From Prorocentrum cordatum (taxonomy: Eukaryota > Sar > Dinophyceae > Prorocentrales > Prorocentraceae), in NCBI GenBank assembly GCA_963575745.1, contig CAUYUJ010018549.1:21001-85000 (forward strand): 64,000 nucleotides of DNA. Direction: 5' to 3'. Both the position numbers and the translations under genes were made by a program. Of the stretch, positions 18,661 to 47,640 are shown in pieces (position 1 is the first letter of the stretch; the number at the start of each line of letters is the position of its first letter). The notes beneath the pieces are model-generated. The model saw only the letters and a list, made by a program, of their open reading frames with translations. It did not search any database and was not told where the DNA came from.

Positions 18661-19621
18661 ATTCGGACGCACTGGCGGGCTGGTTGGCTCGAAAAATCTC
18701 GACGGAACTTTTGCTGACTTTTGGTCGGTTGAAAATTTTGTTCTCGAAATTCAACAATTCGTTCGAGCTCTAGTATTTTTTCCCGTGATATTCGATCTTA
18801 CTCCCGCTCGCCATCTTGATCTCAGCTCGATCGGGTGAATATTACTATCGAAAAGCACTGTGGCGGGATCGGCCGTTCTGAGTCATCTTGATACGCGCTG
18901 TCGGTTTTCTGAACATAACTCGAGCTTTAGGACAGCTACAGAGCTGGTGAGCACAGCTAATCGATGTAGAATGATTAGGCGCGTTCGCTTGTTGAATCGA
19001 GAGGTCTGAACTCGGTCTGTTAGCCGAGCCAGGTCCGGAAACCTGTTCGTATTGTTCGAGTCATCTTGACAGGAACTCTCGGTTTTCTGTACTTAACTCG
19101 AGCTGTAGGACAGCTACAGAGCTGCAGTTTACAGAAACTGATTCAGAATTATCACTGGCCGTTGTCTGTTGAATCCAGAGCTCTGAACTCGGTCTGCTGC
19201 CCGATCTAGAATCGCGAAACTATTCGTATTGTTCGAGTCATCTTGAGAAGTGCTCTCGGTCTTCTTCACTCAACTCGCGCTGAGGGGGGCTACAGTGCCG
19301 GTGGTCATAGGAATCGATTTGAAGACATCAAGCGCGTCCGCCTGTCGAATCCAGAGCTCGGAACTCGGTCTGCTGCCTGAATTAGGTCTGCGAAACTACT
19401 GTATTGTTCGAGTCATCCTGAGAGGTGCTGTCGGTTTTCTGCACTTAACTCGGGCTGTAGGGGGGCTGCAGGGCTGGTAATGACAAGAGTCGATTCGCAG
19501 ACATCAGACGCGTCCGCCTGTCGCATTCAGAGGTCAAAAAATGTGCTCTATGAGTCGGAATGTTGGCAGGTGCTGTCGGTTTTCTCAACTTAAGTCGAGC
19601 TAGGAAGCTCTACGAGTCTCC
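18660..19621. repeat. Header and satellite block left of E1
   Basis: Header at 18,660-18,870 and four monomers from about 18,885. The tail is replaced at about 19,530 by an AAAAAATGTGCTCTATGAGTCGGAATG variant. The block ends GAAGCTCTACGAGTCTCC, the left arm of a foldback module, where element E1 begins. Confidence 0.85.
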
Positions 19622-19937
19622 TGGCTCAAGGCGTGGTTGCTCAAGGCGTGGTTGCTCTGCGCATCCGACAGGGGTTTTAAACTCTGCCTGGACCTCGCCT
19701 CCAGTTTAGAGCCCCTACGCCAGCAAAGTTGTGTTTCGCTTACGTTACGAGGGCATGCACGCATCAAGCCCCTTGGGTAGTGGGCTTCATAGCTTCCCTC
19801 TTGCCAGTTTTCAATCAGCTGAATCTTGTTGTGCACTCAGGACGCGTTACAGATAGCAGATTCAACTTGGTTGTGGCAATTTCTTCAGTTGCACTTGTAC
19901 CTTGTCTCCTTGCCTCGTTCTCTTTCACATTGCAGTT

Positions 19938-21110
19938 ATGGAGGAAATGACAAGAGAAGAGGAGTTGGACATCGAAGGTATGGGAGGGAATGATCTTCAA
20001 AGCAAGATCCGTGGGGGTATACCGCCAGGTCTCTTGGATGCAGCAGCGGGAGCAGCAGGTGGACTTTTGGAGGAAGAAAAGGATGCTAAACGTCGTCGTC
20101 AGAGTGAGTTGGCACGGCAGCAGCGTGAGCAGGCATTGATTCAACAACAACAACAGCAGCTGAATCCTCAGTTGGCGGCACTCTCGCAGCTGCTCGGTTC
20201 GAAGTTTGCCACACAAAAGGAGAATTTTCAGTCTATCATGCAAGGTGAAGTTGCGCCGATCAAACTGAAGTTGGAAGAACACAGTACCGAATTGCAACGC
20301 CTCAATGCACAGGTGCAGTCACAGCAGAGACAGTTAGAAGCCCTCCAAAGTAAAACGAATGCCGATGCCCCAACAGTTGCTTCATCACGTGGGACTGGGT
20401 CGGGGAATCCTGGCTTCCAGTTCCAGGGTACTCGTGGGGAGTTTGGCTTCAAGGGTCCGAGGCCAACCTTCCAACCAACGATGATAACTATAAAATGATG
20501 GGCACGCACAGCGTCAGAAGAGCTTCATAAAAGATCCAAGGCTTTACTCCCTGGAGCGGTGGCCCAGCGCCTCCTTGCGACTCTGTTTCAAAAAGCGAAT
20601 TGCTTGGCGCACGTGGATGAGACAAAAACGAATGATGAGAACAGTAAGAACCCCATGGGATGTTATCAGCTCAAGATATGCTTCAAAGCCACGGCGACGA
20701 AGGATATGATGTGGGATTTTCGCAAAGCGTTCATTCAATGTTTCGAGCAGAAAGCCATCTGTGAGGATCCACACGACGCGACCACGTATAACCACATCTG
20801 TGATGAAAGGATCACGGTTACGGTGGAGGCCTCTCCGTGGCAAGAACCGCACATCAAAGCTGCTTGCAAATTCAAGGCCCTATTTTATAAACATCGTTCG
20901 TGTGCCAGCGCCTTTGTAAAGGTGGAAAAATATGGACCCCCAGCCACGTTTCTATGGGCTTACCCGTCCGAGCAGCAGCTGCAAAAGGGACAGTGTGTTG
21001 CCTCATGGAAGCCTGATCGTGCAGTGGGTTGGAAGATTGATGAGGATATGATCGAGGAAGTCGATCCAAACTTCAAACTGGGGGACTTCAAAGCTGATCT
21101 CATGAGTTGA
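19938..21110 (+). pseudogene. E1 ORF1: coiled-coil Gag-like protein, one in-frame stop
   Basis: I place the start at ATG 19,938 (MEEMTREEEL); upstream codons in frame have no better ATG. The N-terminal ~60 residues are acidic and Gly/Ala-rich. A Gln- and Arg-rich segment (RRRQSELARQQREQ) and a predicted coiled coil follow (about residues 75-145, with leucines at heptad spacing). A Gly-rich linker leads to a C-terminal domain with VEASPW (around 20,823-20,840), related to VEAPPW in E3. An in-frame TGA at 20,496-20,498 falls where E3 and E4 have Gly before Trp, so a GGA-to-TGA change is the simplest explanation. By analogy with other LINEs, ORF1 would bind element RNA as an RNP protein; the C-terminal domain is unrecognised. 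Confidence 0.75.
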
Positions 21111-24100
21111 CGGTGCCCTGGCAAGTGGCACGAACAATTGGCTGAGGTTGATCGCTCAATTTTCAGCTGGAACGTTCGATTGCTAGGGATTGCACAATGC
21201 CACGAGATTTTCGCCCAGGTCTTCAATTCAAGCAATGTGATTCTCCTTCAAGAGTGCCAGTTTGTCTCCGATCGTGTTGCTGAGGAACACGGTTGGAATC
21301 TTTGGCGCTCCTCTTGTGAGCGGGCTTGCGTGGGCCTCCGAGGTGTTTGGAAGGATGATGTCCAACACGAGGCCAGAGGCGACCGTTGGTATGCCGTTGT
21401 TTGCTTTAGTGCCATCTTTCTCTCTCTTTACTTGTCCCATAAGTATTTGCGTGGAAAGTCTCGTGAGCAGTTTTTGCGTACGCTTAGTGTATACCAAGAA
21501 GTGCTGAGGGATGCAGCGCTCAATGTTGCCAGATTGAAAAAGCAGTTTCGAATTCAGGATGTTGTTTTAGGAACTGATGCTAATGTAGAGGTCGAGCCTC
21601 AGGTTTTCCACATGTCTCAGGCTGTCTTTGGGTCCTAGTGTTGTAGGTGTGCCTATTGTCCCTCGTACGAGGGATGGCGGATTTCAGAGGCGATCTAAGG
21701 AGTTTGCTTTGGAACTCAGTGCGGCTCTTACTTTCACTATTGGCACCCTGGGCCTCCAGTTGGCCAACACCTTCAACCCTACGAGGCTCCCTACCTGGCG
21801 CTCTGCTAAATGGGCTCACTACAGGCACCTACCTCAAGAACAGCAGTACTCTCACGTCTACGACTACATAGGTGTACCTTCGTCTTGGGGAGCTCCTGAG
21901 GTCTCCGTCTTGTGGCCACAGCCGGGGGCAGCACATATGTCTGGGAGTTCGGCCTCGAGCTTTTGGAGTGATCATGGTCTGTTACACTTGCGTATCCCTG
22001 CTCGTGTCTTGCCTCGTCGAGTTGTGCGTCCCAATCCTGTCCGCAACACACGTTGGCACGTTCAGTCTCATCGTGTACCTCTTTTGCGCTATGCGGTTGA
22101 TGCAGCCCTGGTGTCTGGCAACAGCCAGACAGAACAGACCGATTGGAGTGGACATACGGGTCTCTCGCCCACGGAGCTAGGTGACAAGATTCGACAGCCT
22201 TGTGAGGAAATCGGCGAGGTCCCCACCAAAGCCGACCTCACCCCGAAAGTTTCTGAGCAGTATGTTGCCGCTCGGGAGGCTGCACTTGAGATGAGGAGGA
22301 AGAGAAATAAGGGTGAATGCACGGAGGAGGAGTTCAAGAAGGCGAGGAGGAGGTACATATATGAGAGGAGGAAGCGTGGGAGGAATATATTGGAGTATGA
22401 GTTCCGTCCAGGTCTACAGCACCGAACATACCTTAAGACGCTCAAAGTTGAGGGAGTGCACACTTGGGACAAGTCTAAGTGGGAGAAGGCCCTCAGAGCG
22501 CACGGCTTGGCCATGTACACTGATGAACATGAGCGTGCACGCACAAACAGTAAGCTTGAGGAGATGAGGAAGAGGTTGCAGGAGGTGAATATGCAGGAGT
22601 ACCAGCCTATCGATATCGGCCTGCTCATGCGTGCTAGGTCTCGTCTTCGTTCAGGAAAGGCCGTAGGTAAGGACAACATCAGCGTCTCCATGCTTAAGCA
22701 CATCCCTTGGTCAGGTTGCCTTCAAGTCTTGCGGTGCTTTCAGCAGCTGTTTATGCGCGAGTATTGCACACCCACATCATGGCGCCATATATGTATACAG
22801 CTGATGCCGAAGTCTGTGAAGACTTGCGAATTCAATGACACACGAGCTTTATCATTATTATCTTGCCTGTCAACATGGTATATGTCATGTCTCACCTTGT
22901 TGGCCGTGGACCATCTCAAACGGAGTGTTGCCCCCGAGGTCATGCTCTTCGGGTTTGTTGCTGGAAGACGGACACACGAGATTACAGGTGGTTTGAAGAG
23001 AGTTGCGCAGCACGCGACGGAATGGGGGAAGTCATATTGTATGCACACGGCGAGCTTAGACGTGTATCGTGCTTTTGATAACGTACAGGTGGCCGACGTT
23101 ACTGACTGCCTGGAGGAGTTGAGGTTTCCACCTGAACTTAGTTATGCGCTCATGGAGGGCCTAGCTGAGAACAGGGCCGATTTATCCTTCCAGCAGGTGG
23201 ACGTCTCGGACATAGCTTGGGATAGTTGTATCCGCACAGGTAGTGTTGAGGCTCCGCTCTTTTGGCTGTGTGAGAGTGTGCTCATGTTCCGTTCTGTGGT
23301 CTTGAGTTGGCAGGAGCGGGGGATGGGAGTGCAGTTGACGCAGCAGGCAGGGACTCGTCATCCTACACATGCGATTTGGGCCGACAGTGTTCTGTTGTGT
23401 GCCAGAGATCAGAGCGAGTTGACGACCATGATTGCGGAGATCAGTGTCCCACTTTATCACAGAAAGTACAGATGGAAACCGAGTAGCTTGCAGTTTATTC
23501 GCTTTGGCTATGATGAGCCTGGGACTGAGAGTTTGGATGTCTCTCTTGCGTTGCCGAATTCCCAGGACAAGCGTCAGAGAGTGACTATAACGTTGCAGCA
23601 GACAGATCGTTTGGAAATACTTGGCACGATTCTTGAAAACAGCATGCGACAACATGAGGACTTGAATCATCGGATTTCTCTCGCTCAAAAGGCGTTTTGG
23701 CAAGATAAGAAGTATTACATGTGCCAGGGTATTAAGTTGAAGAAAAGATTGCTGCGATACGACTCACGTGTAAGAAGCCGATTATTGTTTGCAGTGGAAG
23801 GGATGTCAGCTGACAAAAATGCTATTGAATCGATTCATGCGTTTGAAGGCCGCTTACTTTCGAAGATGGTATGGAGACGGAAACGTGACACCGAGAGTTG
23901 GCCACAGTTTTTTTTTTTCAGAGCGTGTACTTGACGGGGCGGAAAGCACTCAGGACAGCTCAGATGCCGAGTGCGGTTCAGCTCTTTCTTTTCAAACAGT
24001 GGAGTTGGGCAAAGGATGTGGCGACGACAACTGCTCAGAACGGGATCCGCCAAGTTGATGACGCCCAGCCTACAATTGATCCAATGGAAATGGGTGGTGC

Positions 24101-25487
24101 AGTGTCTCTTGATATGGATGGGATGTCTCAGAATGCGTTTGCTACTGTACCGATTACCACGGACTTGATGTCTCAGAATGCGGGCGCGGTCGTACCGATT
24201 ACCACGGGTTCGACGTCTTTGAATGCGGGTGCTGCTGTACCGATTACCAGAGATCTGAAACGACGGAGGGTGACTGTTATTGTGGCCCCTGTCCTTACTG
24301 CCCGAGGGGACCTCACCGTTGCTCTGCCAGAGGGTCAGGAGAACAGCGCCACGAGTCAGAACCGACGACGGCTTATCTCTCAGGCGTCCCGTTCTGCTGC
24401 CAAAAGGAGCAAGACTGCTCCCACATCATCGACGCCATCATCATCATCAGCCCCTACACCAGCGCCAGCAGCCATGCGAAGAAGGTTTCGAAGTGATATG
24501 GTGGGGGCGAGTGCGGATGACCCTTTCTTGCAGGCTCGTTACACGATGATGCATGCCGCCAGCCCGTGGACACAGCAGATGGATGCCGTTATTCGCACCT
24601 ATAACTCGCAGGAAGCACGATCCTTTACACGTCGAAGGGAAGGTGGAAAAACGGTGGGACTTCGTCCGTGGGGCTTGCCATTTGAAACGGTGGGTGGAGA
24701 TGCTTGGTATGATACTCTGGAGTGGACTCAGGCAGGGTGGAGATGTTTTATCCGTACGTTGCTTTCGGAATGGGACCTACAACATGTTTTAGAATATGCT
24801 CACCTGCCTGAACCAAAACCCTGGAGGCCGAAAAACGACGAGGAGGAGGTGGAGGGGACGGAGGAGAGAAATAATGAGATTTCAAAGCGGCTCGCCTTTA
24901 ACTTCGAGAATGCCAGCGTCTGGAACTACGAGGCTGAAGGGATTCCCGTCGAGCTCTGTGGGGACTCCCAGGTGGTAGTGAACTGGCTGGTGGGACAATA
25001 TGTATGTACGACGGAAGTGTATTGTGAGACCATTGCACACATTCAAAGTATATTATACAGATTACACTTGAACTACCGCGTGAATCTGAGGCCGCCGTCT
25101 TGGGGTTTAGATCCTTGGAAGTGGTTTTATCGTGAGGGAAACGAGCGTGCTGATGCTGAAACTTGGAAGGCCCGCACGGGCCAGAACCATCGTACTTTCG
25201 ACCCGTGCATTCATACTCTCAGAAGGGAACAAATAACGGGGATTCGCGGCTACTTCGATGGTGGTCGTTCCTCCCACGGTGTTGGCATTGGTTGGGTTAT
25301 TGACTTATTCGTGCTCCCCCTCCCTGCTCTTCAACACTCTCAAGGCTCTTGGCTATTCAACATAGCCTCCGAGGCTGCCGCCATCCCGCCGACCTGCACG
25401 GTTAGTCAAGCTGAGCTCTTGGCCAGCAAGCGCCTCGCTGAAGGTGTCGAGCACCTGCTGCTCCTCTGCTGCGGACCTGAATCCTGA
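21111..25487 (+). pseudogene. E1 ORF2: endonuclease, reverse transcriptase, RNase H (two frameshifts)
   Basis: It follows the ORF1 TGA in the same frame (TGA CGG TGC C). The endonuclease has SWNVR, LLQE, TDANVE, a DYIGVP segment and WSDH, so all catalytic positions are kept. A frameshift near 21,605-21,640 sits in the linker after TDANVE. The reverse transcriptase runs from about 22,610 to 23,520, with LDVYRAFDN (A), RTGSVEAP (B) and WADS (C, 23,377-23,388); the second Asp of the usual pair is Ser. A second frameshift lies in a T11-T12 run at about 23,908-23,918. The RNase H motifs are in permuted order: CGDS (near 24,963), REGNERAD (25,131-25,154), YFDGGR (near 25,251), then SQAEL (near 25,405). 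Confidence 0.82.
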
Positions 25488-25530
25488 GCGGGGGCTCCTT
25501 TGTCCCTGTGGGCTCCGAGCAAAGCAAAAA

Positions 25531-26430
25531 AACCAAGGTTGACGGTTTACCGCCGGCGCCCAGTTGGTCGAACCGGCGAGAAAGGACAAAGTGGTAACTT
25601 TTGGGTGGTTTCGCGAGTATTCCCGGAGAGCTCGCTGAGAGCTAAAGGATTCAAGATTAGAAGCCGGACGGTGGGGTGCCCGCCAGGAGCTCCTCCACGG
25701 CGGTCCACGATCCCCGCAGCGGCTTTTTTGAGCCGGCAACTGGTCCGGGGGAGCGTCCGGCAAGCTTCCACGCATGCCTGCATGCGTGCAGGCACGCATG
25801 GAGACGTTTCTGCCAGCGCTTCGGCAGCTCTGCAGGATTTCCCGTCCCCAAAGGGTCTCTTCGCTCTCCGGGTTTTGGGCGCTACCATTCCCGGAGAGCT
25901 CGCTGGGAGCTAAAGAGTTTAAGATTAGAAGCTGGACAGTGGTGGTGCCCGCCAGGAGCTCTTCCACGGCGCTCCACAGGCCTCGCAAAACCTCCGGTGA
26001 GCTGGCAACGGGTCCGGGAGAGCTTCCGGCAAGCTTCCAAGCGTGCCTGCACGCGTGCAGGCACGCATGGAAGCGTTCCTGGCAGCGCTTCAGCAGCGCT
26101 GCAGGGGGGCCCCCCAGGGCTCTCCAGAAAAGATTTCCCGTCCCCCAGGGTGTCTTCGCTCTCCGGGCTCTTCCCGGAGAGCTCGCTGAGAGCTAAAGGG
26201 TTTAAGATTAGAAGCCGGACGGTGGTGGTGCCCGCCAGGAGCTCTTCCACGGCGGTCCACAGGCCTCGCAGCGCCTCCGGTGAGCCGGCAACGGTTCCGG
26301 GAGAGCTTCCGGCAAGCTTCCAAGCGTGCCTGCACGCGTGCAGGCATGCATGGAAGCGTTCCTGGCAGCGCTCCAGCAGCGCTGCAGGGGGGCCCCCCGG
26401 GGCTCTCCAGGAAAGATACCCGTCCCCGAG
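25531..26430. repeat. Foldback remainder and three GC-rich modules
   Basis: The right half of the E1 target foldback (to about 25,563) is followed by a beta fragment and forward GC-rich modules starting near 25,622, 25,890 and 26,173. They share GAAGC(C/T)GGACGGTGG(TGG)TGCCCGCCAGGAGCTC and a GCCTGCACGCGTGCAGGCA-type centre (GCATGCCTGCATGCGTGC in the first). Confidence 0.8.
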
Positions 26431-27060: not shown

Positions 27061-28095
27061 GCAAGAAAAATCTCGACGGACCTTTTGCTGACTTTTGGTC
27101 GGTTGAAAATTTTGTTCTCAAAATTTGACCATTCGTTAGAGCTCTAGTATTTTTTCCCATGATATTCGATCTTATTCCCGCTCGCCATCTTGATCTCAGC
27201 TCGATCGGGTAACTTTGAAAGCCAAAAAGCAGGCAGGCGGGAACGGCCGTTTCGAGTCATCTTGATACGCGCTGTCGGTTTTCTCAAGATAACTCGAGCT
27301 TCAGGACAACTACAGAGCTGGTCAGCACAGCTAATGCATTCAGAATGATCAGGCGCGTTCGCCTGTTGAATCCAGAGGTCTGAACTCGGTCTGCTAGCCG
27401 AGCTAGGGTCGCAAACCTATTCGTATTATTCGAGTCATTGTAGCAGACGCTCTCGGTTTTTCGTACTTAACTCGATCTGTAGGGCAGCCACAGAGCTGAT
27501 AATCACAGAAATCGATTGAGAATTATCAGGCGCGTTCGTCTGTTGAATCAAGAGCTCTGAACTCGGCCTGCTCCCCGAGCTAGGTTCGCGAACCTATTGG
27601 TATTGTTCGAGTCATCTTGAGAAGTGCTCTCGGTTTTCTGTACTTAAATCGTGCTGGGGGAGGGCTACAGTGCTGCTGGTCACAGGAAATCGATTTCGAG
27701 ACATCAGGCGCGTCCGTTCGTCGAACCGAGAGCTCGGAACTCGGTCTGCTGCTCGAACGAGATCCGCGAAACTGTTGTATTATTCGAGTCATCCTGAGAG
27801 GTACTCTCGGTTTTCTGCACTTAACTCAGGCTGTATGGGGGGCTGCAGAGCTGGTAATCACAGGAATCGATCCGCAGACATCAGACGCGTCCGCCTGTCG
27901 CATTCAGAGGTCTGAACTCGGTTTCATACTCGAGCTCGATTGGAAAACTGTTCGTTTGTTTTGTTAGAGTCATCTTGAGAGGTCTATGATCGCTTGGGCT
28001 GAAAAACTAGTCGTTCTCTGAAATTCTTTTCCACATTATATTTTGTCAGGAAGCTCTACGAGTCCCCCTGCGGTTGAAAGGTTGACGGTTTACCC
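27060..28095. repeat. Header and satellite block left of E2
   Basis: This block is almost identical to 34,560-35,558, at an offset of about 7,463 bp. Both share unusual variants such as CAAAATTTGACCATTCGTTAG, AAGGCCAAAAAGC (AAAGCCAAAAAGC on the left) and CAGACGCTCTCGGTTTTTCGTAC. The foldback at its right end is damaged (TGCGGTTGAAAGG..TTTACCCCGG). Confidence 0.85.
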
Positions 28096-28391
28096 CGGCC
28101 AGAAAGGACAAAGTGTTAACTTTTGGTCGGTTTTGCAATTTTTTGAAAGATATTTGTCAATTCATTTTGAGAAAGCAGATTTTTACTCCGAGCATTGAGA
28201 TATAAACTTCGTTCCCTGAGCAGCTCAGCCCTCTAAAGCCATTTTCAGTACCAGTTCACTTGGAGCAACCGACTTCATGTTGACTCCGAAAAATCTCAAC
28301 TTGAAGTCTTTGTAGAAAAGCTCCCAGAAGCTCTCCCTTTAATCCTGAGCTTTCTCACGGATACAAGGAGCTCTACGAGGTTCCCGGCGGT
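28096..28391. repeat. Beta module variant and left half of E2 target
   Basis: A beta-type module (AAGGACAAAGTGTTAACTTTTGG, then TCATTTTGAGAAAGCAGATTTTT) runs to GAGCTCTACGAGGTTCCCGGCGG. The E2 target duplication begins at 28,392. Confidence 0.75.
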
Positions 28392-28401
28392 GACCAGGTT
28401 G
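28392..28401. repeat. E2 target-site duplication, left
   Basis: GACCAGGTTG here is repeated at 34,526-34,535 on the other side of E2. Joining the flanks restores an intact foldback (GGCGGTGACCAGGTTGACGG). Confidence 0.85.
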
Positions 28402-28913
28402 CTGCTGTCCCTCCTCGGGGATCTCAGCGGTGGCCTGGCCCGTCGGGGGCCTCCTCAAGCCTGTCTCCTCAGGCTGCCCCCTGGGCGGCCGTGGGCGCGC
28501 GTGGGTGCGCGCTGGCCCATAAGTTCGTGTACTTCGTCGGCTGCAACCTCCTGGACGTGCTGCGCATAGGTCGCTGCATTTGTACTCTGCTCGTGTTAGC
28601 GGGTGAGCCCACACGTGCCGCTGGAGGCGCAAGGCCGCTACCTGTTGCACTTGTATCTTTGCTGTTTGCTTGTGATACTCTTGGGAGCCCAGCACTTACC
28701 AGTTTTGCTCTGGCAGTTGAGAAGGACACTTTGACCGTTTTTGTTGCAGCAGATTTCATCACGTACCGACTTTCACCTTCACGGGGTTGGGATAAGTTTC
28801 TTGAAGAACTCGAGGACGAACACTATCGTGATCTGGAGGCTAGTAGGTGCCCTACTTGTCGAGCTTATCGGTATTCTACTTCCAGTTGTGGGCAGTGTGA
28901 TCTTAAGAGGAAG
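28402..28913 (+). promoter_or_regulatory. E2 5' leader
   Basis: The region is GC-rich and starts with a potential hairpin (CTGCTGTCCC..GGGGATCTCAGCGG) just before the motif shared with E3. An internal promoter is expected in LINE leaders, but I cannot identify one. A GTG-started frame running in from 28,491 contains CPTC..CGQC, but the well-placed ATG is at 28,914. Confidence 0.5.
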
Positions 28914-30026
28914 ATGGTTCCGACTTCTGATGATGATATGGGAACTGAGGGCAACGGAGAGAAGCGACAGAGGAAGCTCCTGGAAGATAGACGTCTTCTT
29001 GGTGATGCCGAGGGTGGTGGAGGTGGGGCAGTTAGTGGGAATGGAAGTGGTAGTAGTGGAGGAGGAGGAGGTGATGCTGGAGATCTGGCCACTATGCTCC
29101 GTGCACAGTTCGATGCCATGCGTGAAGATATGCAGAGGATGCTTATGCAGAACTCTGTTGACATCAAAGAGCAGATTCAAACGAGGGTATCAGAGCAGGT
29201 TGCCCCTATTGCTTCGTCGGTGCAGGAGATTCGTTCAGCTCAGGAGGCCCAGGCGAAAGAGATCAAAGCACTTCAGTCTCAGATGAACTCTAGAGATCCC
29301 TGGGCAGATTCATCATCTCTGGGAGGTGCGTCTACTCGTGATTCTCGTACTGCTGACTTCCAGAGACCCTTTGTACCACATGTTCCGACTTGGATCCAGG
29401 TGAGCGGCTTCGCGCAAGAGGACCCCCGAAAGGTTGAAACTCGAGATAAGGCCAAGATCCAGGTCACCACGGTTAGGAACATGATAGGTAAGTTGTACAC
29501 ACTATCGCAAGCACGGGAGAGTGACGTTACTAAGATCTTCGACAGAGGTAGGACGGACGGGGATATCGCTTCCAATCGATTTGGTGTGACCAAGTTTCGC
29601 ATATACTTCATGCCAGGGACTTCGAAAGAGACGGTCTGGGAAGTACGCAACGAGTGGGCCTCAGCCTGGTCCAATTCGTGCCCTGATCTGGTCGGTTGTC
29701 AGAATAGTTTTGGACCATGCAAAGATCGACACCTCGGTTGGTTTGTCCAACCGGCACCACAGGACCGACGTAGAGTGGGGGAGACTCGCAAGGCGACTGC
29801 GATCTTTCATAAGCTCAAGACTGTTGCCACTGCTCTCATCACTTTTGAGCCTGAAGGGCCTGCAAAGGCTTGGGCATACCTGCAGAAGGATAGTCAGAGT
29901 GATAAAGTGTGTGTAGGTACGTGGACGGATACCGTGGGATGGAAGTTCGTGTCCGAGCGGGTCCAGCACATCGATCCAGATCTGGACTGCAAGACTTGGG
30001 AGAGGCAGGTGAATAGCAGCTCGTGA
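28914..30026 (+). CDS. E2 ORF1: coiled-coil Gag-like protein
   Basis: The start is ATG 28,914 in AAGATGG, the same context as the E3 start, giving 370 residues (E1 about 389, E3 348). After an acidic and basic N-terminus (KRQRKLLEDRR) comes a Gly/Ser-rich stretch, then a predicted coiled coil (about residues 60-125, from LATMLRAQFDAMRED). The C-terminal ~200 residues form the domain shared with E1, E3 and E4: FRIYF, then an aromatic helix (VWEVRNEWASAW), RKATAIFHKLK, and GWKF..VQHIDPD at the end. Its role as element RNA-binding protein is inferred from position. It ends in TGA directly followed by CGGTGCC and continues in frame into ORF2. Confidence 0.85.
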   Translation: MVPTSDDDMGTEGNGEKRQRKLLEDRRLLGDAEGGGGGAVSGNGSGSSGGGGGDAGDLATMLRAQFDAMREDMQRMLMQNSVDIKEQIQTRVSEQVAPIASSVQEIRSAQEAQAKEIKALQSQMNSRDPWADSSSLGGASTRDSRTADFQRPFVPHVPTWIQVSGFAQEDPRKVETRDKAKIQVTTVRNMIGKLYTLSQARESDVTKIFDRGRTDGDIASNRFGVTKFRIYFMPGTSKETVWEVRNEWASAWSNSCPDLVGCQNSFGPCKDRHLGWFVQPAPQDRRRVGETRKATAIFHKLKTVATALITFEPEGPAKAWAYLQKDSQSDKVCVGTWTDTVGWKFVSERVQHIDPDLDCKTWERQVNSSS

Positions 30027-34525: not shown

Positions 34526-34535
34526 GACCAGGTTG
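34526..34535. repeat. E2 target-site duplication, right
   Basis: GACCAGGTTG, identical to 28,392-28,401. The foldback then continues ACGGTTCACCGCCGGCGCCAG. Confidence 0.85.
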
Positions 34536-36840: not shown

Positions 36841-38255
36841 GGCGCTGGAGAGCGGCAAGGAAAATCTCGACGGACATTTTGATGACTTTTGTTCGGTTGA
36901 AAATTTTGTTCTCGAAATTCAACAGTTCGTTCGAGCTCTAATATTTTTTCCCGTGATATTCGATTTTATTCCCGCTCGCCATCTTGATCTCAGCTCGATC
37001 GGGTACTTTTTACTGCTAAAAAGCACTACGGCGGGATCGCCCGTTTCCAGGCATCTTGTGACGCGATGACGGTTTTTTCAAGATAACTCGAGCTTCAGGA
37101 CAGCTACAGAGCTGACAAGCACAACTAATCGATCCAGAATGATCAGGCGCGTTCGTCTGTTGAACCCAGAGGTATGAACTCGGTCTGCTAGCCGAGCAAG
37201 GTCTGCAAACCTACTCGTATTATTCGAGTCATCTTGACAGACGCTCTCGGTTTTCTGTATTTAATTCGAGCTGAAGGACAGCTACAGAGCTGATACGTAC
37301 AGAATATGATTAAGAATCATCAGTGGTCGTTGTCTGTTGAATCCAGAGCCTGAACTGCTGCCCGATCTAGAATCACGAAGTTGTTTCTATTGTTTGAGTC
37401 ATCTTGAGAGATGATGTCAGTTCTCTCTTAACTCGGGCTGTAGGGCGGCTGCATGGATGACAATCACTGGAATCGATTCGGAGACATCAGGCGCGTTCGC
37501 CTTTTGAATGCAGAGCTCCGAACTCTGTCTGCTGCCCGAACTAGGTCCGCGAAACTATTCGTATTGTTCGAGTTGTCCTGAGAGGTGCTGTCGGTTTTCT
37601 GCACTTAACTCGGGCTGTGGGGGGGGGGGGCTGCAGAGCTGATAATAGGAATCGATTCAGAGACATCAGACGCGTCCGCCTGTCGCATGCAGAGGTCTGA
37701 ATTCGGTCTGATACTCTAGCTAGGTTTGCCAAACTATTCGTATTGTTCGAATCATCTTCTGCTGTCGATTTACGCGCGTAACTCGGGCTGTAGGAGAGCT
37801 ACTAGAGCTCGTGCAGAAGAGAAGCATTGGGGGCGTTCGGCTGTTGCATCCGAGAGGTTTGAAATTGCTTGGGCTGAAAAACTATTTTATCGGTGTATTC
37901 TTTTTCGACATTATAGTTCTCAGGAAGCTCTACGAGTCCCCCGGCGGTACGAAAGGTTGACGGTTTACTGCCGGCGCCCAGTTTTGGTAAGATTTGAAAG
38001 ATATTTGACAATTTATTTTGAGGAAGCAGATTTTTACTTTTTCCGCGAGCAGCTCAGCTCTTTCGAGACAGTGTTACTATCCAAACATTTGGGGGAACCG
38101 ACGTGATATTGACACCGAGAAATGCAAGTATGATGTTTTTCTACAAATGCTCTGAGAAGCGGTCTGCTTTGAATCTGAGAATTCTTACGCGTGCAAGGAG
38201 CTACGAGGTTCCCGGCGGTGACCAGGTCGCCGGTTCACCGCCGACGCCAGTTCCG
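36841..38255. repeat. Header, satellite, foldback, beta module
   Basis: Header (36,841-37,045), about four monomers to 37,830, tail and foldback (37,920-37,983), a shortened beta module (37,985-38,200) and a second foldback (38,208-38,252). A G10 run at 37,621-37,630 interrupts a monomer. Confidence 0.8.
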
Positions 38256-39091: not shown

Positions 39092-39180
39092 TATTTTTCC
39101 AACATTATATGTTGTCAGGAAGCTCTACGAGTCCCCCGGCGGTAACAAAGGTTGACGGTTTACCGCCGGCGCCCAGTTCG
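38256..39180. repeat. Header and satellite with T32 run
   Basis: Header (38,256-38,450) and three to four monomers, with one fused mid-unit to the tail at about 38,950. An uninterrupted T run spans 39,059-39,090 inside the tail where other copies read ACTATTCGTTCTCTGCAATTTT. A foldback follows (39,118-39,176). Confidence 0.8.
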
Positions 39181-40422
39181 CAAGAAAAATCTCGACGGAC
39201 CTTTTTTCTGACTTTTGGTCGGTAACTCGTAGAGCTTCCCTTAGCTAGTTGCTGGAAGCTTAAGAGTAATTCCGGCGCGCTGGAGAGCTAGTTGGCAAGA
39301 AAAATCTCGACGGACCTTTTGCTGACTTTTGGCCGGTTGAAAATTTTGTTCTCGAAATTCAACAATTCGTTTGTGCTCTAGTATTTTTTCTGACCACATT
39401 CGATCTTATTCCCGCTCGCCATCTTAATCTCAGCTCGATCGGGTAAATATTTCTGCAAAAAAGCATCGCGGCGGGATCGGCTGTTTCGAGTCATCTTGAT
39501 ACGCGTTGTCGGTATTTTGTACTTAACTCGAGCTGTAGGGCAGCTACAGAGCTTATTCTCACAGCAATCGATTGCGAATCATGAGGCGCGTTCGTCTATC
39601 CCATCTAGAAGTCTGAACTCGGTCTGCTGTTCGAGCTAGTTCCGCGAAATTATTCGTGTTGTTCGAGTCATTTTGAGAGGTGCTGACAGTTTTCTGCACT
39701 TAACTCGGGCTGTAGGGGGGCTACAGGGCTCGTACTCACAGGAATCGATTCGGAGACATGAGGCGCGTCCGCCTGCCGAATCCAGAGCTCGGAAATCGGT
39801 GTGCTGCCCGAGCTAGGTTCGCAAAACTATTCGTATTCGTCGAGTCGTCTTGAGAGGTACTGTCCGTTTTCTGCACTTAACTCAAGCTGTAAGGTGGCTG
39901 CAGGGTTGGTAATCACTTGAATCGATTCCGAGACATCAGTCGCGTCCATCTGTCGCATTCAGAGCCCTGAACTGGGCCTGCTGCCCGAGCTAGGTTCGCG
40001 AAACTATTCGTATTGTTCGAGTCATCTTCAGAGGTGCTGTCAATTTTCTGCACGTAACTCGGGCTGTAAGGGGGCTGCAGGGCTGGTAATCACAGGGATC
40101 GATCCAGAGACATCAGGCGCGTCCGCCTGTTGCATTCAGATGTCTGAACTCGGTCTGATACTCGAGCTAGATTCGCGAAACTATTTGGATTGTTCGAGTG
40201 ATCTTGAGAGGTGCCGTCGATTTTCGCACGTAACTCGGGCTGTAGGAGAGCTACGGAGCGCGTGCGCAGAGAAAACGATCCAGAAGCGTCGGGGCGTTCG
40301 GTTGTTGCATCGAGAGGTCTGAAATCGTTTAGGATGAAAAATTATTCGTTCTCTGCAATTTTTTTCGACATTATATATGCTCAAGGAAGCTCTACGAGTC
40401 CCCCGGCGGTAACAAAGGTTGA
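39181..40422. repeat. Cassette, header, satellite and left half of E3 target
   Basis: A cassette is inserted within a header fragment (39,225-39,290), then a full header and five monomers (39,490-40,310), the tail and the left half of a foldback ending AACAAAGGTTGA (40,411-40,422), where E3 starts. Confidence 0.82.
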
Positions 40423-40926
40423 GGAAGCGGAGATTACCTCCCGCTCTCCCTCGGCCTTGGCCCGTCGGGGGCTCCTCGAGCTGCATCGTGCAGTCAGGTA
40501 GCCTGCCCCTGGCCCGCCGCGCGGGGGCGCGTGGCGATCGGGCCACTTCGGCGACTTCGGCGAGTCCGAGGTAAGCAGGCCGCCTGCCTTTGTTTGTATT
40601 TGGTTGTGTGCATTGTTGCGGCATTTTGCCGCGTCGAGCTGGACGGGACGAGCCAGAGTCAATCGATCGATCTGGACCGCTGGGGAGCCAACTTCGGACA
40701 CTGGGAGTGGGAGTATCTTGCCAGACAGGTTGGTAACGCTTGTCACGACGATAAAGATTCTCTAGTTGACATACCATCTGGACCACCTGATCTCTCTCCC
40801 ACTTTACCTCACAAACCTTGTACCCCATATAACTTTCATCAGTTAAGTGCGCATCTCAAACGTACTCGAGAAGATCGATCGTTCTGTGCGAAGTGGAATA
40901 TCCCTTGTAACATCTCAGACGGCAAG
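40423..40926 (+). promoter_or_regulatory. E3 5' leader
   Basis: About 500 bp of leader. The first ~110 bases resemble E2, including CGTCGGGGGC(C)TCCTC(A/G)AGC and CTGCCCC(C)TGG. No promoter motif is recognisable. Confidence 0.5.
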
Positions 40927-41973
40927 ATGGCTGCCTCATCAGCTGCTGCGGTCCCCGAGGTTTTCGCCATGGACGCCACTGATATGCCCGTTCCAGGAGC
41001 CAAGGAGGAGGAGGTCCCAGAGGGAAAACGTGTCAAAGTTCAGACGGTTGAAGGCCTCGAGGAGGCCATGACTACGGGGATGGACAAGATCACGACGCTT
41101 GTTGCATCTCTGGGAGGTAAGATGACTGAGGGCTTCCAATCAACTCATCGGATCATCACGGACCTAGGCACCCAACTCAATGCTCGTGTTGATTCGGTGG
41201 AGAAAAATGTACAGCAGGCGATGACGGACCTTGATGTTATCACTAAGAAGGTGGAGGATCAGAGGCTCCAGATTATTCAGCTCCAGCAGACTCCGGCAGG
41301 TGGGGCCCCCAGAGCAGGCACTTCTACGACAGCGTCCTCGGGGGAAACTCGGCAGTCCATGCAGAACTTCACTCCATCATTTGTCGAGCTCAAGGGATGG
41401 GTGACGGACTGGCGGGATGCAGAAAAGCGTCAGGAGGAGATGTTATCACAGCAGGCGTTGAACTCACTACTGAATGAGGTCCTGGCTGGAGAATGGTTCA
41501 GCGGTGTGAAGGAGCTTCTGGACCTGAACCAATCCAAGAGGTTCAACACAGGTCGAGAGGCATGGGGTTATTCGCGTGCTCGGCTCTATTTCCAGAATGG
41601 GGTTACCAGTGACCAGCTGTGGGATCTCCGTCGTCGGCTCGTCGCCGCGATCGCCGACAACAAACTCCAGCACGCTCCCAGGGTCCTCAAGGTCCACGTG
41701 GAGGCCCCCCCCTGGAAGAAGCCCCATCTGGATGCCGCTGGGATCTTTCAGGCAAAGTTCAAGAGTTTCAAGAAGCATCATTCAAATCTCAGGGCTGAGA
41801 CGGGACCACCGATTACGTTCATGTGGGGTTCCAGTGACCACTTACCACCTCCAGGGAATATTGTGGCCAAGTTCTCTCTGCAGAATGGCTGGGGGATTAC
41901 TCGTGCAATGAATCAGCTTGAGCCAGGGATCAACATTCATGAGTTGCGAGCGAGGATTTCCAGTACGAACTAG
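40927..41973 (+). CDS. E3 ORF1: coiled-coil Gag-like protein
   Basis: I start at ATG 40,927 (AAGATGG, MAASSAAAVPEV), giving 348 residues; an in-frame GTG much further upstream would add implausible sequence. A basic patch (GKRVKVQT) precedes a coiled coil of about 90 residues (from GLEEAMTTGMDKI to DQRLQIIQLQ). The conserved C-terminal domain has VELKGW, RARLYFQNG, WDLRRRL, KVHVEAPPWKKPH and GWGITRAMNQLEPG. It ends in TAG followed by AGGTGCC, in frame with ORF2. The reading frame is open, in contrast to its broken ORF2. Confidence 0.82.
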   Translation: MAASSAAAVPEVFAMDATDMPVPGAKEEEVPEGKRVKVQTVEGLEEAMTTGMDKITTLVASLGGKMTEGFQSTHRIITDLGTQLNARVDSVEKNVQQAMTDLDVITKKVEDQRLQIIQLQQTPAGGAPRAGTSTTASSGETRQSMQNFTPSFVELKGWVTDWRDAEKRQEEMLSQQALNSLLNEVLAGEWFSGVKELLDLNQSKRFNTGREAWGYSRARLYFQNGVTSDQLWDLRRRLVAAIADNKLQHAPRVLKVHVEAPPWKKPHLDAAGIFQAKFKSFKKHHSNLRAETGPPITFMWGSSDHLPPPGNIVAKFSLQNGWGITRAMNQLEPGINIHELRARISSTN

Positions 41974-44900
41974 AGGTGCCACGACACCATTGCGTCATGG
42001 AATGTGCGTCGGGCAGGTGCAGAGAACGGCCATGACATAATTAATTCACTACGTCGCTTAGATGTGGGACTCGCGGGGTTGTGCGAGTGTCAGTTCCTTT
42101 CAGTTCGTGATCTCAGCATGCGAGGTTACACAATTTTTCGCAGTACTTGTCGGAAGGCTGCGGTGATCATGTCCAAGTCTTGGAGAGACTCGCTCAGAGC
42201 CACATATCGTGGCACAGGTTTTGTCATTTGTAATTATTTTTGTGTTACGGTTATTTTTGCATATATGCCACATGAGAGTATCAGTACCCTTACGGAAGAA
42301 CAGTATGAGCATGATGTGTATGAGCAGATATTGTTTGATATATCCCAAGTGCTTCGCACACATAGGTCTACGTTCCCGAAGCAGCCGCAGGACCTGGTCT
42401 TCTTGACAGATGCTAACGTCGAACTCGAGCCAGATTCGGAGGTCGACGGCTTCAGAGTTACTGGATCAGGGCTTCTGGAGGCGTCTGGGATTGCTGGGGA
42501 TTCTACGGAGATTGATACTGGGATGGAGGAAGGAGCGGATGACGGCAACCCGTATATGACTCAAACAAAACGTTGTGCACGTAAAATAAGACCTCATAGG
42601 GTTGTCTCGGGCTTCGAAATTCGACGGGCGTCTAGGCTGCAATCTATGAGGAGGGCCCTACTGGACTTCTGCGGGCTCTGGGGCATCAGGATGGAGAACA
42701 CATTTGGGCAGAGGAGGGTTACTTTCAAATCAAGTGCGGGGGTGGAGAAGGTACTCGACTATGTTGGTGTCAGCCGTCGTTTACACAGGCAGGAGATCAC
42801 TGTAGGCTGGATGCTGCCTGCGGAAATCGGCCACGCCTGGACGGAGCACCCATGCAGCAGATACGAGCGTGCGCTGTCTGACCACGCTTGCATAGTTGTT
42901 CGCCTGTCTTGTGCACCGTCTGCGAAGAGACGGACCCAGCCTGCTCGGAAATTCATCCACTTGCAGCCGGTGTCGCAGCGTGAGTTTGCGAAGAACATGG
43001 GGGCAGTCGTTACCGTGCTTTGTGCCAGGAAAATGCTGACCCAGAGGACCGCCAGGAGATGTTGGATACGCTGGGACCTGACCTCATAAAGGCCGCCGAG
43101 GAGACCCCCCAGAAAGATATCAATCCCAGGAATAATGTGCCAAAGGAATCCGAGATCCACTGGGCCGCCCAGGAAAGTAAACGCGAAGCGCTTCGTCGTG
43201 GGGATAGAGAGGAGGCCAAACGGTGCTCAAAGATAGTGAGGAGAGAAAGAAGGAGGCTGGAGGCAAGAGTACAGAGGTGGAGGACGGAAATGAACACGAG
43301 GAGGAGGAGGAGGGCCAAGACGGAGACGTTGATCCTTGCCAACGGGATGGAGTCTCAGAACCGCGAGGAGTGGGGGGACGAGATATTGGGGCACATGAAG
43401 TCTAAGGTGGAGGACCCCGAGGCCAGAGAGGTGACCCTTCGTGAGCTTCAGTCGCTGCGTGGTCTATGTTCGGGAAGCGGATCCTCAGAGGTGTTCTCGA
43501 TGTCGCTCCTGCTGCGGGCGAGGGCGAAGCTGTCCACGGGAAAGGCCCCAGGTCCCGACAACGTGACTGTCACGATGTTGAAACAGCTCTCGTGGGCATC
43601 TGTGCGACGTGTTCTGGTGAGCTTCCAAGGTGTGTATTCCCGCAGGTTATGTTGCCCCGACAGTTGGCGTCAACTAGCTGCCACGCTCATGCCTAAAGAA
43701 ATGGACATACAACATTTGACTGATACACGTGTGCTATGTCTACAGTCGTGTCTTATGAAATGGTACATGACATGTATTGTGATGATGATTGAGAAGAGGA
43801 TTGAGGAGCACCGACACTATGTATGCCTGTGCGGATTCAGATCGGGACGTAAACCATCGTAAATCACCAGCGTTGCCAATAGGCTCAGCCAGCACTCCGC
43901 TGTCTGGGGCAAAGGAGACAGTTTGTGGCTTGCCAACCTTGATATTTTACAAGCTTTCGATAATGCCACTCCGTGCCTCGCCATGCGCTGCCTTCGTGCT
44001 CTTGACATACCTGCTGATCTCATTGTGGCGTTGATTGAACCCATGATGGATAATCAGTGCGTGGCCAGCTTCGAGGGCATCGAGGCATCGTCAGCGGTCT
44101 ATTGGGACAAATCTATTCGAACGGGAGGAGTAGAGGGACCGATGATTTTTCTTGCAGTTTCTATTGTACTCTGGAGAGATGTGATCGACAGATGGAGGCA
44201 GGAAGCGCAGTACGGTATCAAATTGGAAAATGATGAGCGCATGTTCAACGGTGAGCGTATGACCCACAGTTTCTGGGCATATAATCTTCTGTTGTATGCG
44301 AAGACCCGCACTGACCTCGAGTTGACGGTGCGTGACATGAGCATCCCGCTGATGAATGCAGGAATGACCTGGAAGCCGAAATCTTTGATGTATATTTACT
44401 TTGGTGCGCCGCCTGGCATCCCGCCGTCTCCCGAGCAGGATATCCGTGTGCTGGTGCCGTCTAGTGACGCTGCTCTTGGGACCCGAGAAGTGGTCCTACC
44501 GCGTGTTCAGTCGTTTGAGATCCTGGGAGCCACTCTGGAGGAGACCTGGAAGGACCACTCGGACTCAGAGGCCATGCTCCAGAAAGCCCAGAAGATGTTC
44601 TTTGGGGAAATCGCGTATTATCGCTGCTCTGGGATTGACTTGGCTGAAAGATTTACTCGCTATCAAGCTAAAGTGATTGCTGCATTATTATTCAACTGTG
44701 AGGGCAGAACGCCCGACTATTCTACCATTGCTGCTGTTCACTATTTTGAAGGCAGATGTCTAGCGATAATGTCAGGTCTACGCAAGCGGAGAACTGAAGG
44801 CTGGTCTGAGTTTCAACGTAGGCGATACAAAGCGGGACGACAGAGTTTTGTTGAGCTTGGATTCCGAAGTGCGGTGCAGATATGGATATTTCGCTGTTGG

Positions 44901-46108
44901 GATTGGGCTAAGGATGTCTCAGTTGCTGCAAGTATTCGTATGAGGAGATACACAACACACACAGAGGAGGAGGAGGGAGAGACGGTACCAAATCGGCGTC
45001 AGAGGAAAACTCGGGCGATGGCGGCGGCGGCGGCTTCTCATGCATATCATGTATCTCAGATATCCCAGATGTCGAGTGGCTGTCGTCGGCGGACGCCGGA
45101 TGATCAGCCTGCCATACCTGAGGAGTCGGACATGTCACGTGAATGGATGATATCTAGGCTGGCCATGCTACATGGAAGGGGGAAGTGGACGGAACATCGT
45201 GACACATGTATTCTAGCGTTGCCTGCAAAAGATAGGAAGCAACTCACACGCATGAACATGGGCGGCCCTCCCCGTGGACATACTGTGTGGGACTGGTGTT
45301 TGTGCGATCTCTTTGGTTGCGAGTGGTACCTCTCGTTCGACAGCTCCGCTGGGTCCCGAGAGAAATATTGCATGCATTTGCTGACTGTGATTGGTATGCA
45401 ACACTTGTTCGACTTGTTTGCTTTACCCAGGCCACCTGGTGTGAGGCACGTGAAGGCGGAGGAGGAGGAGGAGAGGGAGATGAATGAGAGGATGAGCAAA
45501 CGTATTGCCGCTAATTATGAGAATGAAACGGAGTGGAGGTGTGAGAATATTGAGCGTCTTGGGATGGAGATCTTGGGAGATAGTAAGACGGTTGTAAACT
45601 GGATGTGTGGTGAGTGGCAGATTACAAAATACGGTATCGATGCTGTCTGGATGGGGACTGACCTCACCTGCATCGGGACAGAATCTGTATAAGCATTTCT
45701 TTCGTGAGGGTAATGAGCGTGCGGATAGATTGTCGTGGGAGGCCAGAGGTGGCCAAACTATTACTCGCTGGTTTGCATATGATAAGTTCCTCAGTACTCG
45801 TAAGACTGCTCTCCGTGGTGCATTCGATGGGGGTGTCAGTAATGAAGGATGTGGAGGTGGGTGGTGGCTTCAGATTGGCGTTGTAGGTAGGGGTTCCAGC
45901 GTGCAGGTTGATTTTCCCATCCTCCTCCTCCTCCTCCTCCTCCTCTTCCTCCTGCACCAGCTCGCACAGCTTCCATTGGCACGATGTGGCCGAGGAGGCG
46001 ATGAGCTTGCCTCCTGGTAGCACAGTAACCTGCTGTGAACTAACTGCCTGCGCTGCCCTGACGAGAGCTGCTGCTAAGGTGGCGTGCGCTCTGCTGCGAC
46101 CTACCTAA
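41974..46108 (+). pseudogene. E3 ORF2: endonuclease, reverse transcriptase, RNase H (broken)
   Basis: The endonuclease is complete: SWNVRR (41,995-42,012), CECQF, FLTDANVE, KVLDYVGV and LSDH. A frameshift occurs near 43,010-43,025. A TAA at 43,860-43,862 stands where E1 and E2 have Glu (HEIT / YEVT), so GAA-to-TAA is likely. The reverse transcriptase has LDILQAFDN, RTGGVEGP and WAYN (44,274-44,285), in which both Asp of the normal catalytic pair are replaced. RNase H motifs again run LGDS (near 45,578), REGNERAD (45,703-45,726), FDGG (near 45,823), CCEL (near 46,034). Frameshifts lie near 45,660 and in a (CCT)n run at 45,918-45,950. It cannot encode an active enzyme. Confidence 0.82.
45918..45950. 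repeat. (CCT)n microsatellite in E3
   Basis: About ten CTC triplets interrupt the RNase H region and coincide with a change of reading frame, consistent with slippage. Confidence 0.8.
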
Positions 46109-46185
46109 GATGGTGGGGGGCTCAGTTGCACTGCTCCGCCGATTCGGATTCGGATTCTAGTGGCGGACCGCAAACCGCAAACAAA

Positions 46186-47640
46186 AACCAAGGTTGACGG
46201 TTTACCGCCGGCGTCCAGTTGAAAATTTTGTTCTCGGAATTCAACAATTCGTTTGAGCTCTAGTATTTTTTCCCGTAATATTCGATGTTATTCCCGCTCG
46301 CCATCTTGATCTCAGCTCGATCGGGTACTTTTCACTGCCAAAAAGCGTCGCGGCGGGATCGGCTGTTTCGAGTCATCTTGACACGCAATGACGGTTTTCT
46401 GAACATAACTCGAGCTTTTAGACAGCTACAGAGCTGGTTAGCACAGCTAATCGATTAAGAATGATCAGGCGCGTTCGCCTGTTGAGCCCAGAGGTCTGAA
46501 CTCGGTCTGCTAGCCGAGCTAGGTCCGCAAACCTATTCGTATTATTCGAGTCATCTTGGCAGACACTCTCGGTTTTCTGTACTTAACTCGAGCTACAGGA
46601 CAGCTACAGAGCTGATACGTACAGAATCTGATTCAGAATCATCAGTGGCCGTTGTCTGTTGAATCCAGAGCTCTGAACTCGGTCTGCTGCCCGATCTAGA
46701 ATCGCGAAACTATTCGTATTGTTCGAGTCATCTTGAGAGATGCTGTCGGTTCTCTGCACTTAACTCGGGCTGTAAGGGGACTGCAGGGCTGGTAATCACA
46801 GCAATCGGTTCGGAGACATCAGGCGCGTCCGCCTTTCGAATCCAGAGCTCCGAACTCCCGAACCAGGTCCGCACAACTATTCGTATTGTTTGAGTCATCC
46901 TAAGAGGTGCTGTCGGTTTCCTGCACTTAACTCGGGCTGTAGGGGGGGGCTGCAGGGCTGGTAATAACAGGAATCGATTCAGAGACATCATACGCGTCCG
47001 CCTGTCGTTTGCAGAGGTCTGAACTCGGTCTGATACTCGAGCTAGGTTTGCCAAACTATTCGTATTGTACGAGTCATCTTGAGAGGTGTTGTCGATTTAC
47101 GCGCGTAACTCGGGCTGTAGAAGAGCTACAGAGCTCTCACAGAAGACAATCCAGAATCATCGAGGGGCGTTCGGCTGTTGCATCCGAGAGGTCTGAAATT
47201 GCTTGGGCTGAAAAACTATTTGTTCTGGGTAATTTTTTCGACATTATATGTTGTCAGGAAGCTCTACGAGTCCCCCGGCGGTAACAAAGGTTGACGGCTT
47301 ACCGCCGGCGCCCAGTTGGTCGACCCGGCGAGAAAGGACAAAGTGGTAACTTTTGGGTGGTTTTGCAATTTTTTGAAAGATATTTAACAATTCATTTTGA
47401 GAAAGCAGATTTTTCGCACCTGTAAACGACTATGAGGGCCTCTCTGTCTTAGTATGAGCTCTGTAGGCGCACTTTTACTATCAAAACACTTGGGGGAACC
47501 ATCTTCATGTCCACACGAAAAAAACAATTTTTCTTTTTTTTGAGAAATGCTTCCAAAAGCTCTCTCTTTCGACTCCGAGAACTCTCACGCGTGGAATGAG
47601 CTCTACGAGGTTCCCGGCGGTGACCAGGTTGACGGTTCAC
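46186..47640. repeat. Foldback remainder, header, satellite, beta module
   Basis: The right half of the E3 target foldback, a header (46,215-46,370), five monomers, tail and foldback (47,258-47,318), a beta module (47,320-47,600) and another foldback (47,600-47,650). Confidence 0.82.

Follow-up and report, generated by a model that had tools for sequence, protein, structure and literature searches.

The 64,000-nt stretch of Prorocentrum cordatum DNA analysed here (the window) contains three long interspersed nuclear elements (LINEs), termed E1, E2 and E3, whose 3′ ends all adjoin one and the same base of a recurring hairpin, GGCGGT^(A/G)ACCA(A)GGTTG(A)^CGG (carets set off the target segment). 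We consider it likely, at roughly four chances in five, that they belong to a group of LINEs with an endonuclease of the apurinic/apyrimidinic (AP, or APE) type, which inserts by target-primed reverse transcription at this base, and that the hairpin is the 3′ terminus of units resembling Helitrons or Helentrons, of the kind called Helentron-associated interspersed elements (HINEs). An earlier note on this DNA had proposed that three different retrotransposons, all in one orientation, were inserted at one base of a cruciform-forming satellite hairpin. The junctions bear out the shared base, and the genome-wide behaviour of E2 makes that claim stronger than it was; the satellite and the cruciform call for revision, as discussed below.

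Each of E1, E2 and E3 has a first open reading frame (ORF1), an AP-endonuclease-like region (a remnant in E1), a reverse transcriptase (RT) and a C-terminal stretch; both frames of E2 are open, while those of E1 and E3 are broken. Features that identify LINEs were found: an RT domain with an AP-type endonuclease region upstream of it, a 3′ tail made up of short repeats, and target duplications (10 and 12 bp). The RVT_1 profile matches E2 above the curated cut-off (E 1.3e-7) and E1 and E3 below it (2.4e-4 and 6.7e-4); an RVT_3 (RNase H-like) match in E2 is weak (E 0.098, below the cut-off). At the protein level E1 and E2 are 35% identical over 793 amino acids, BLASTP pieces spanning the RT give 28–36% identity among the three elements, and the compared RT stretch gives 32–38%. 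Their DNA is essentially unalignable, the sole match being one of 56 bp between E2 and E3 in opposite orientation. A tblastn search of the window with the proteins in hand found no fourth RT-bearing element of this kind, so that hairpin use in the window is three out of three.

Class A hairpins, occupied by E1 and E3, read GGCGGT^AACCAAGGTTGA^CGGTTTACCGCC, and the class B hairpin occupied by E2 reads GGCGGT^GACCAGGTTG^ACGGTTCACCGCC. All three elements lie on the + strand, as the earlier note had it. At their 3′ ends E1 and E3 run into AACCAAGGTTGACGG (at 25531 and 46186, two boundaries that fall in runs of A and are uncertain by a few bases), and E2 runs into GACCAGGTTGACGG (at 34526). The junction coordinates also confirm the duplications that had been described, 10 bp for E2 and 12 bp with one mismatch for E3: GACCAGGTTG is perfectly repeated on the two sides of E2, and AACAAAGGTTGA before E3 faces AACCAAGGTTGA behind it (Table 1). 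E1 is not flanked by a target duplication: its 5′ boundary falls at GAGTCTCC^TGGCTC, which means that its hairpin has lost the left arm.

The figure of about 30 hairpin copies agrees with the 30 right-arm matches found in the window at up to 4 substitutions, the three behind E1, E2 and E3 included. That three chance insertions at this point are improbable also held up: AACCAAGGTTGACGG occurs 3255+3054 times in the 4.13 Gb of genome searched (21,875 contigs), against 1+1 for its reversed control, and 38.5 kb of background, made up of 13 stretches chosen independently of the motif (sixteen were requested, and three contigs were too short), held no hairpin at up to 3 substitutions, no inverted repeat of the array kind and no match to the LINE proteins in hand. 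Hairpin arrays are therefore not everywhere, and we reject random insertion.

The earlier note had asked that junctions of relatives be collected across the genome, and this was done for E2 using its last 500 bp, hairpin excluded, as the query. The search gave 158 candidates, of which 40 were scored, and every one of these 40 stops at the target base. The family is apparently very young: the copies are 99–100% identical over those 500 bp, and 15 of the 40, the window copy among them, have the top score, at 100%. Thirty-six continue into the right arm. In two others (L118 and L119; L-numbers denote fetched genomic stretches outside the window) that arm is lost after GACCAGGTTGAC, with identical flanks, so that they are probably one locus, and in L111 and L122 the sequence changes after GACCAGGTTG, running into E2's own 5′ end in L111 and into a neighbour without assigned identity in L122. 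Compared with GACCAGGTTG, the target has no mismatch in 31 copies, one in seven and two in one, and in L116 it is shifted by a few tail bases. Exact E2 tails number 139 genome-wide, and 88 of them (63%) are followed by the exact 13-nt target ACCAGGTTGACGG; this leaves 51, but the exact-target rate is similar in the inspected copies (27/40), all 40 of which are at the target.

The position predicted for a full-length 5′ end was read in 20 of the 40 copies. In 11 of these E2 begins directly behind a target copy of the GGCGGTGACC type, with a 5′ end that is complete in nine and shortened in two, and the 10-bp duplication is perfect in nine and has one mismatch in two. L131 was rejected as a twelfth junction, being an intact hairpin. 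The remaining eight have no target at the predicted place, as is expected for truncated or differently sized copies, and at least one of them (L147) shows inner E2 sequence there. Private target variants stand on both sides of the element in L136 (GACGAGGTTG) and L129 (GACCAGATTG), which proves that the duplication arose at insertion. The LINEs therefore insert at a fixed position, in one orientation, with duplication of the target and independently of one another.

Other LINEs use the same base. In twenty 10-kb chunks centred on AACCAAGGTTGACGG, a simple rule classed 121 of 136 right arms as empty-like; among the other 15, examined by eye, seven are LINE-like tails at the base used by E1, E2 and E3 (L011, L016, L021, three in L023, and L025) and eight are diverged or broken hairpins. 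The rule overlooked an eighth tail, in L015, on account of a deletion in its right arm. Perfect duplications of 12 bp flank three chunk elements, each with a different variant (AAGAAAGGTTGA and AACAAAGGTTGA in L023, AACCAAGGTTGA in L011); the pairs were assigned by nearness, and two of the three elements gave no protein match. A second sample, blind to occupancy, took 60 of the 69 exact hairpin sites listed outside the chunks, omitting four on C187 and five on C194. This provided the comparison with empty sites that the earlier note had wanted: 55 are empty (52 by rule and three diverged ones by eye), and five (L034, L037, L045, L060 and L080) are filled, as called from tail-like sequence alone. 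Four of these tails are unlike those of E1, E2 and E3, and the fifth (L080) is that of E3. Extended over 6309 exact sites, the rate of 5/60 gives some hundreds of insertions, a rough figure because the sample came from the first contigs alone. That the hairpin is part of the LINE is ruled out by empty sites that retain both arms and by the 5′ target copies.

In the window and chunks together, ten elements combine a visible 3′ end with an RT or C-terminal domain, and seven of them are at the hairpin (E1, E2, E3, L015, two in L023, and L025). Eight RTs were compared, six from hairpin users and two (L010 and L020) from a family inserted elsewhere. The hairpin users share only 27–38% identity, except for one pair at 56%, and fall into four deep lineages: E1 with E2, E3, L015 with L023, and L025. 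Such divergence among elements at a single base implies that the hairpin habit is old or was gained repeatedly; the L010 and L020 pair forms one side of a branch, and eight rows cannot tell a single from a repeated origin. A further open frame of 742 residues in L021 (7773-9998, −) matched none of the available LINE proteins by BLASTP, and by eye may be another RT.

These results suggest the following route. The LINE endonuclease would first nick the bottom strand at the junction of GGCGGT with (A/G)ACC. The 3′ end released in this way (...GGTT or ...GGTC) would anneal to the tail of the LINE RNA, and reverse transcription would begin there; the LINE tails consist of short repeats, often with AACC or GACC. 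A cut in the top strand 10–12 nt away (GGTTG^ACGG or GGTTGA^CGG) would then account for a duplication of 10 or 12 bp. E1 and a few others follow a second 5′ mode, in which the left arm is lost: the loss falls at GAG..TCC^TGGC in E1, L015 and one element of L023, and L021 is similar. The constant 3′ junction, the AACC or GACC tails, the constant stagger and the AP-type endonuclease region all fit target-primed reverse transcription. The hairpin would be a good target because each Helitron-like unit needs a terminator and the units form arrays.

The endonuclease region, which lies upstream of the RT, resembles AP endonucleases in shared motif residues and in a low-confidence structural model. 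Residues common to E2 and E3 are W9 N10, E37, Y102, D158 N160, D242 and S276 D277 H278, which we take to be AP-endonuclease motif positions. The best 50 of 249 Foldseek matches to the E2 model are AP endonucleases and members of their superfamily (TDP2, Crc and the LINE-1 endonuclease); a search of the PDB by sequence gave no match for the region. The idea of sequence-specific LINEs with an AP-type endonuclease region and a repeated target is supported, with insertion at one base in many independent events.

What the earlier note called a satellite does form repeated arrays. It is not a plain satellite, however, and its units are most likely Helitron- or Helentron-like (HINE) elements with the hairpin at the 3′ end. 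Leaving L001-L008 aside, the fetched sequence holds 207 right arms (L092 is the window E2 and so is counted twice). Readable ends were obtained for 186, and these consist of GG, 2–3 nt, then CCAG (183) or CTAG (3). A T follows the unit end in 178 of the 186 and opens 63 of 68 distinct downstream contexts, T making up 25% of bases; many of these contexts also occur uninterrupted at other places in the arrays, T included. The hairpin is preceded by GGAAGCTCTACGAGT in class A and GAGCTCTACGAGGT in class B, and the reverse complement of this stretch begins the 5′ modules. In class A GGAAGCTCTACGAGT is a 15-nt inverted repeat lying 44 nt from the 3′ end, with its reverse complement ACTCGTAGAGCTTCC at the 5′ modules. 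A T stands before 95 of 100 copies of the 5′ modules, in 33 and 31 distinct upstream contexts. The distance from the end of the palindrome to the terminal CAG is 9 nt in class A and 8 nt in class B.

According to PMC4067079, mite HINEs have subterminal inverted repeats of 12–15 bp, which lie about 2–4 nt from the 5′ end and 38–60 bp from the 3′ end; they also carry a palindrome close to the 3′ terminus and insert at sites rich in T. The array units match this description, on which their HINE-like reading is based, with two misfits: there is no preference for TT, and the end is CCAG rather than CTRR. The Helitron_like_N profile gave 151 matches in the genome (1615 candidates, 150 scored, best E 6e-56), many of them in long open frames, and none in 14 control genomes.

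It is unlikely, though a candidate to be taken seriously, that the hairpin units are instead an ordinary satellite or another hairpin-ended element, in which case the targeting by LINEs would still be real. No Rep/helicase copy ending in this hairpin was found, the two misfits named above point the same way, and the inverted-repeat modules often have a CTAG end of their own. Against this, a fixed unit end followed by T in nearly all distinct contexts is what mobile ends show, the 15-nt inverted repeat and its spacing fit the HINE description in PMC4067079, and the genome is rich in Helitron Rep domains. We find it less probable still that the endonuclease recognises DNA structure, a cruciform or looped-out hairpin, rather than sequence. 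Folded as single strands, both hairpin classes do better than shuffles (z −2.8 and −3.7), and the stems of the two classes differ by a compensating change (GGTAA/TTACC as opposed to GGTGA/TCACC). A cruciform nevertheless seems unnecessary, and nothing shows that one is recognised: a stem is expected anyway in a Helitron terminator, the insertion base is constant, and in L111 the 5′ end of another E2 follows directly on an E2 tail and GACCAGGTTG, so one arm was absent when the second element arrived. L122 is possibly a like case. Template jumping between two RNAs could also produce both arrangements, and a deletion that of L122. Since the L111 target had lost an arm yet adjoins a second E2, the ability to form a hairpin is probably inherent in the terminator and not the signal for insertion.

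Two further explanations strike us as highly improbable. The site might be common by descent, a single ancient insertion having been copied with its satellite unit, which was one of the outcomes that the earlier note had itself named as fatal to its claim. Flanks are indeed identical over the compared 220 bp in L102, L107 and L126, and also in L118 and L119, and several pairs are 80–95% alike, as array units are. Yet 37 of the 40 E2 copies have distinct flanks at a 97% ungapped cut, and different target variants are privately duplicated, which excludes copying for E2; E1, E2 and E3, for their part, have essentially unalignable DNA and strongly diverged RTs. Alternatively, A-rich tails might anneal to any AACC-like spot without a specific endonuclease, and appear enriched at the hairpin because arrays are common. 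Many tails do end in AACC or GACC repeats, but none of the 40 E2 copies is at another AACC or GACC site, the constant 10-bp duplication implies that the second-strand cut is constant too, and the hairpin-free background argues that arrays are not everywhere. As far as these 40 copies go, we therefore reject guidance by the tails alone.

Several observations nevertheless weigh against the reading that we prefer, an AP-type LINE group targeting the ends of Helitron-like units. The model of the endonuclease region is poor (mean predicted local distance difference test score, pLDDT, 44.8), and no Pfam match was found for this region in E2 or E3. The chunks were selected by the motif itself. The result of 40/40 holds for the E2 family only, because the junctions of the 40 scored copies of E3 (423 candidates) could not be read. 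As for the units, the base preceding the 5′ T is G in 62 of 100 copies and T in 13, the 3′ ends differ from the canonical Helitron CTRR, and the base before the inserted unit is variable, unlike the canonical Helitron insertion between A and T. No Helitron gene could be tied to the hairpin: none of 81 contigs with E2 junctions and none of 18 listed hairpin contigs is among the 147 with listed Helitron_like_N matches, both lists being partial, and none was recognised among the chunk ORFs, as judged by eye without a family search. Finally, three of the ten elements with a visible 3′ end (L010, L020 and L026), one related family, are inserted elsewhere, so the hairpin rule is not valid for every relative. 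The earlier note had asked whether relatives occur in unrelated sequence; none of the 40 E2 copies does, and this family lies away from the hairpin. Its members lie at L010:1444-3975, at L019:8383 to L020:3070 (one element across neighbouring chunks) and in L026 (−), and share a 3′ end, ..GGCGCACGCGCCCTGTGTAGCC..CAAC; two of the three copies join another stretch of the arrays near AACTCGRGCT, which is perhaps a second specific insertion site.

The coordinates of the elements, their targets and some unoccupied hairpins are collected in Table 1.

Table 1. Elements, targets and unoccupied hairpins in the window
Feature	Position	Strand	Basis
E1 LINE, ORF1, endonuclease remnant, RT and C-terminal domain, decayed frames	19622..25530	+	RVT_1 below cut-off, E2 alignment, junctions
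Right half of target behind E1, AACCAAGGTTGACGGTTTACCGCCGGCGCCCAG	25531..25563	+	junction, right-arm search
Unoccupied, somewhat diverged hairpin, 0.3 kb upstream of E2	28070..28097	+	right-arm search
5′ target copy of E2, GACCAGGTTG, left arm GGCGGT before it	28392..28401	+	junction
E2 LINE, apparently full-length; tail (GCAGACC)n-like	28402..34525	+	ORFs, domains, junctions
E2 ORF1 and same-frame ORF2 (endonuclease, RT, weak RNase H-like match)	ORF1 to stop at 30024; ORF2 to 34295	+	ORFs, domains
In-frame ORF1/ORF2 stop of E2, TGA CGG TGC C	30024..30035	+	ORF reading
E2 endonuclease region	30027..31007	+	shared residues, low-confidence model, Foldseek
3′ target copy of E2, GACCAGGTTG, then ACGGTTCACCGCC	34526..34535	+	junction
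Empty target of class B with diverged core; order: inverted repeat, hairpin, CCAG terminus, T	38197..38250	+	
Empty target of class A; order: inverted repeat GGAAGCTCTACGAGT, hairpin, GGCGCCCAG, T	39118..39176	+	
5′ target copy of E3, AACAAAGGTTGA, GGCGGT before it	40411..40422	+	junction
E3 LINE, ORF1, in-frame stop, endonuclease and RT in two frames; tail (CCGCAAA)n-like	40423..46185	+	domains, E2 alignment, junctions
3′ target copy of E3, AACCAAGGTTGA, then CGGTTTACCGCC	46186..46197	+	junction

A trait common to these LINEs is that ORF1 and ORF2 share one frame with a single stop between them, at 21108 in E1, 30024 in E2 and 41971 in E3, and likewise at L019:9271, at L015:2354 and in L025 (−). 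The context of the stop is TGA CGG TGC in E1, E2, L019 and L015, TAG AGG TGC in E3 and TGA CGA CAG in L025, the last of which has two further stops inside ORF1. Judging from this arrangement, stop-codon readthrough yielding an ORF1–ORF2 fusion is probable. Also in the window, tblastn detected an ORF1 fragment of a LINE related to L015 at 56182-56711 (−), with no visible 3′ end. Between 48731 and 50994 three hairpins repeat, unchanged in sequence, about 1.62 kb further on (48732/50355, 49072/50695 and 49374/50995), a pattern that points to recent tandem duplication of part of the array.

If our interpretation is correct, the conserved end of a probable rolling-circle transposon constitutes a new class of target for sequence-specific LINEs; among the papers listed in literature searches, none was seen to report a Helitron or Helentron end or hairpin as a LINE target. 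The dozens of very young copies in the genome could be used for dating. PMC4067079 puts forward the idea that Helentrons acquired their endonuclease through the insertion of a non-LTR element into a Helitron, or through DNA-based transduction. LINEs that target the hairpin make this idea testable. More speculatively, and in our view with rather little probability, an old LINE clade may live in the terminators of rolling-circle transposons. With its 3′ hairpin broken by the insertion, a Helitron-like unit may extend past it as far as the following terminator, a few hundred bases away, and take the LINE with it. The LINE would then spread by two routes, its own insertion habit and Helitron-like read-through, and an APE endonuclease would repeatedly be placed beside a Helitron 3′ end, a concrete route to fusion of a LINE endonuclease with a Helentron Rep/helicase.

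The usual targets of such LINEs, namely ribosomal DNA (rDNA), telomeres and small RNA genes, are maintained by the host; a Helitron-like target would instead be maintained by another parasite. R1, TRAS, SART and Waldo-type LINEs target rDNA, telomere repeats and microsatellites. The elements described here are like them in having a repeated target, an APE endonuclease and short target duplications, and unlike them in the target itself, here seemingly a transposon end. The closest known system is Tx1L of Xenopus laevis, an APE-type, sequence-specific LINE whose target lies inside another transposable element. The likeness extends to the type of endonuclease, the specificity of insertion and the mobile-element target; the differences are the Helitron-like 3′ terminal hairpin, the several deeply diverged LINE lineages and the large protist-like genome found here. 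R2-type LINEs also use one base in a repeated target, but R2 has a restriction-like endonuclease, according to PMC6895275, while the region found here resembles AP endonucleases. More generally, the LINE targets given in PMC8869645 are rRNA, tRNA and snRNA genes, spliced leader exons, telomeres, microsatellites and other transposable elements. As for the target units, they resemble Helentrons, HINEs and DINE-1, as these are characterised in PMC4067079, in their subterminal inverted repeats, 3′ palindrome and T at the insertion point, and differ from them in that those elements favour T-rich or TT sites whereas here T is seen on the 3′ side only.

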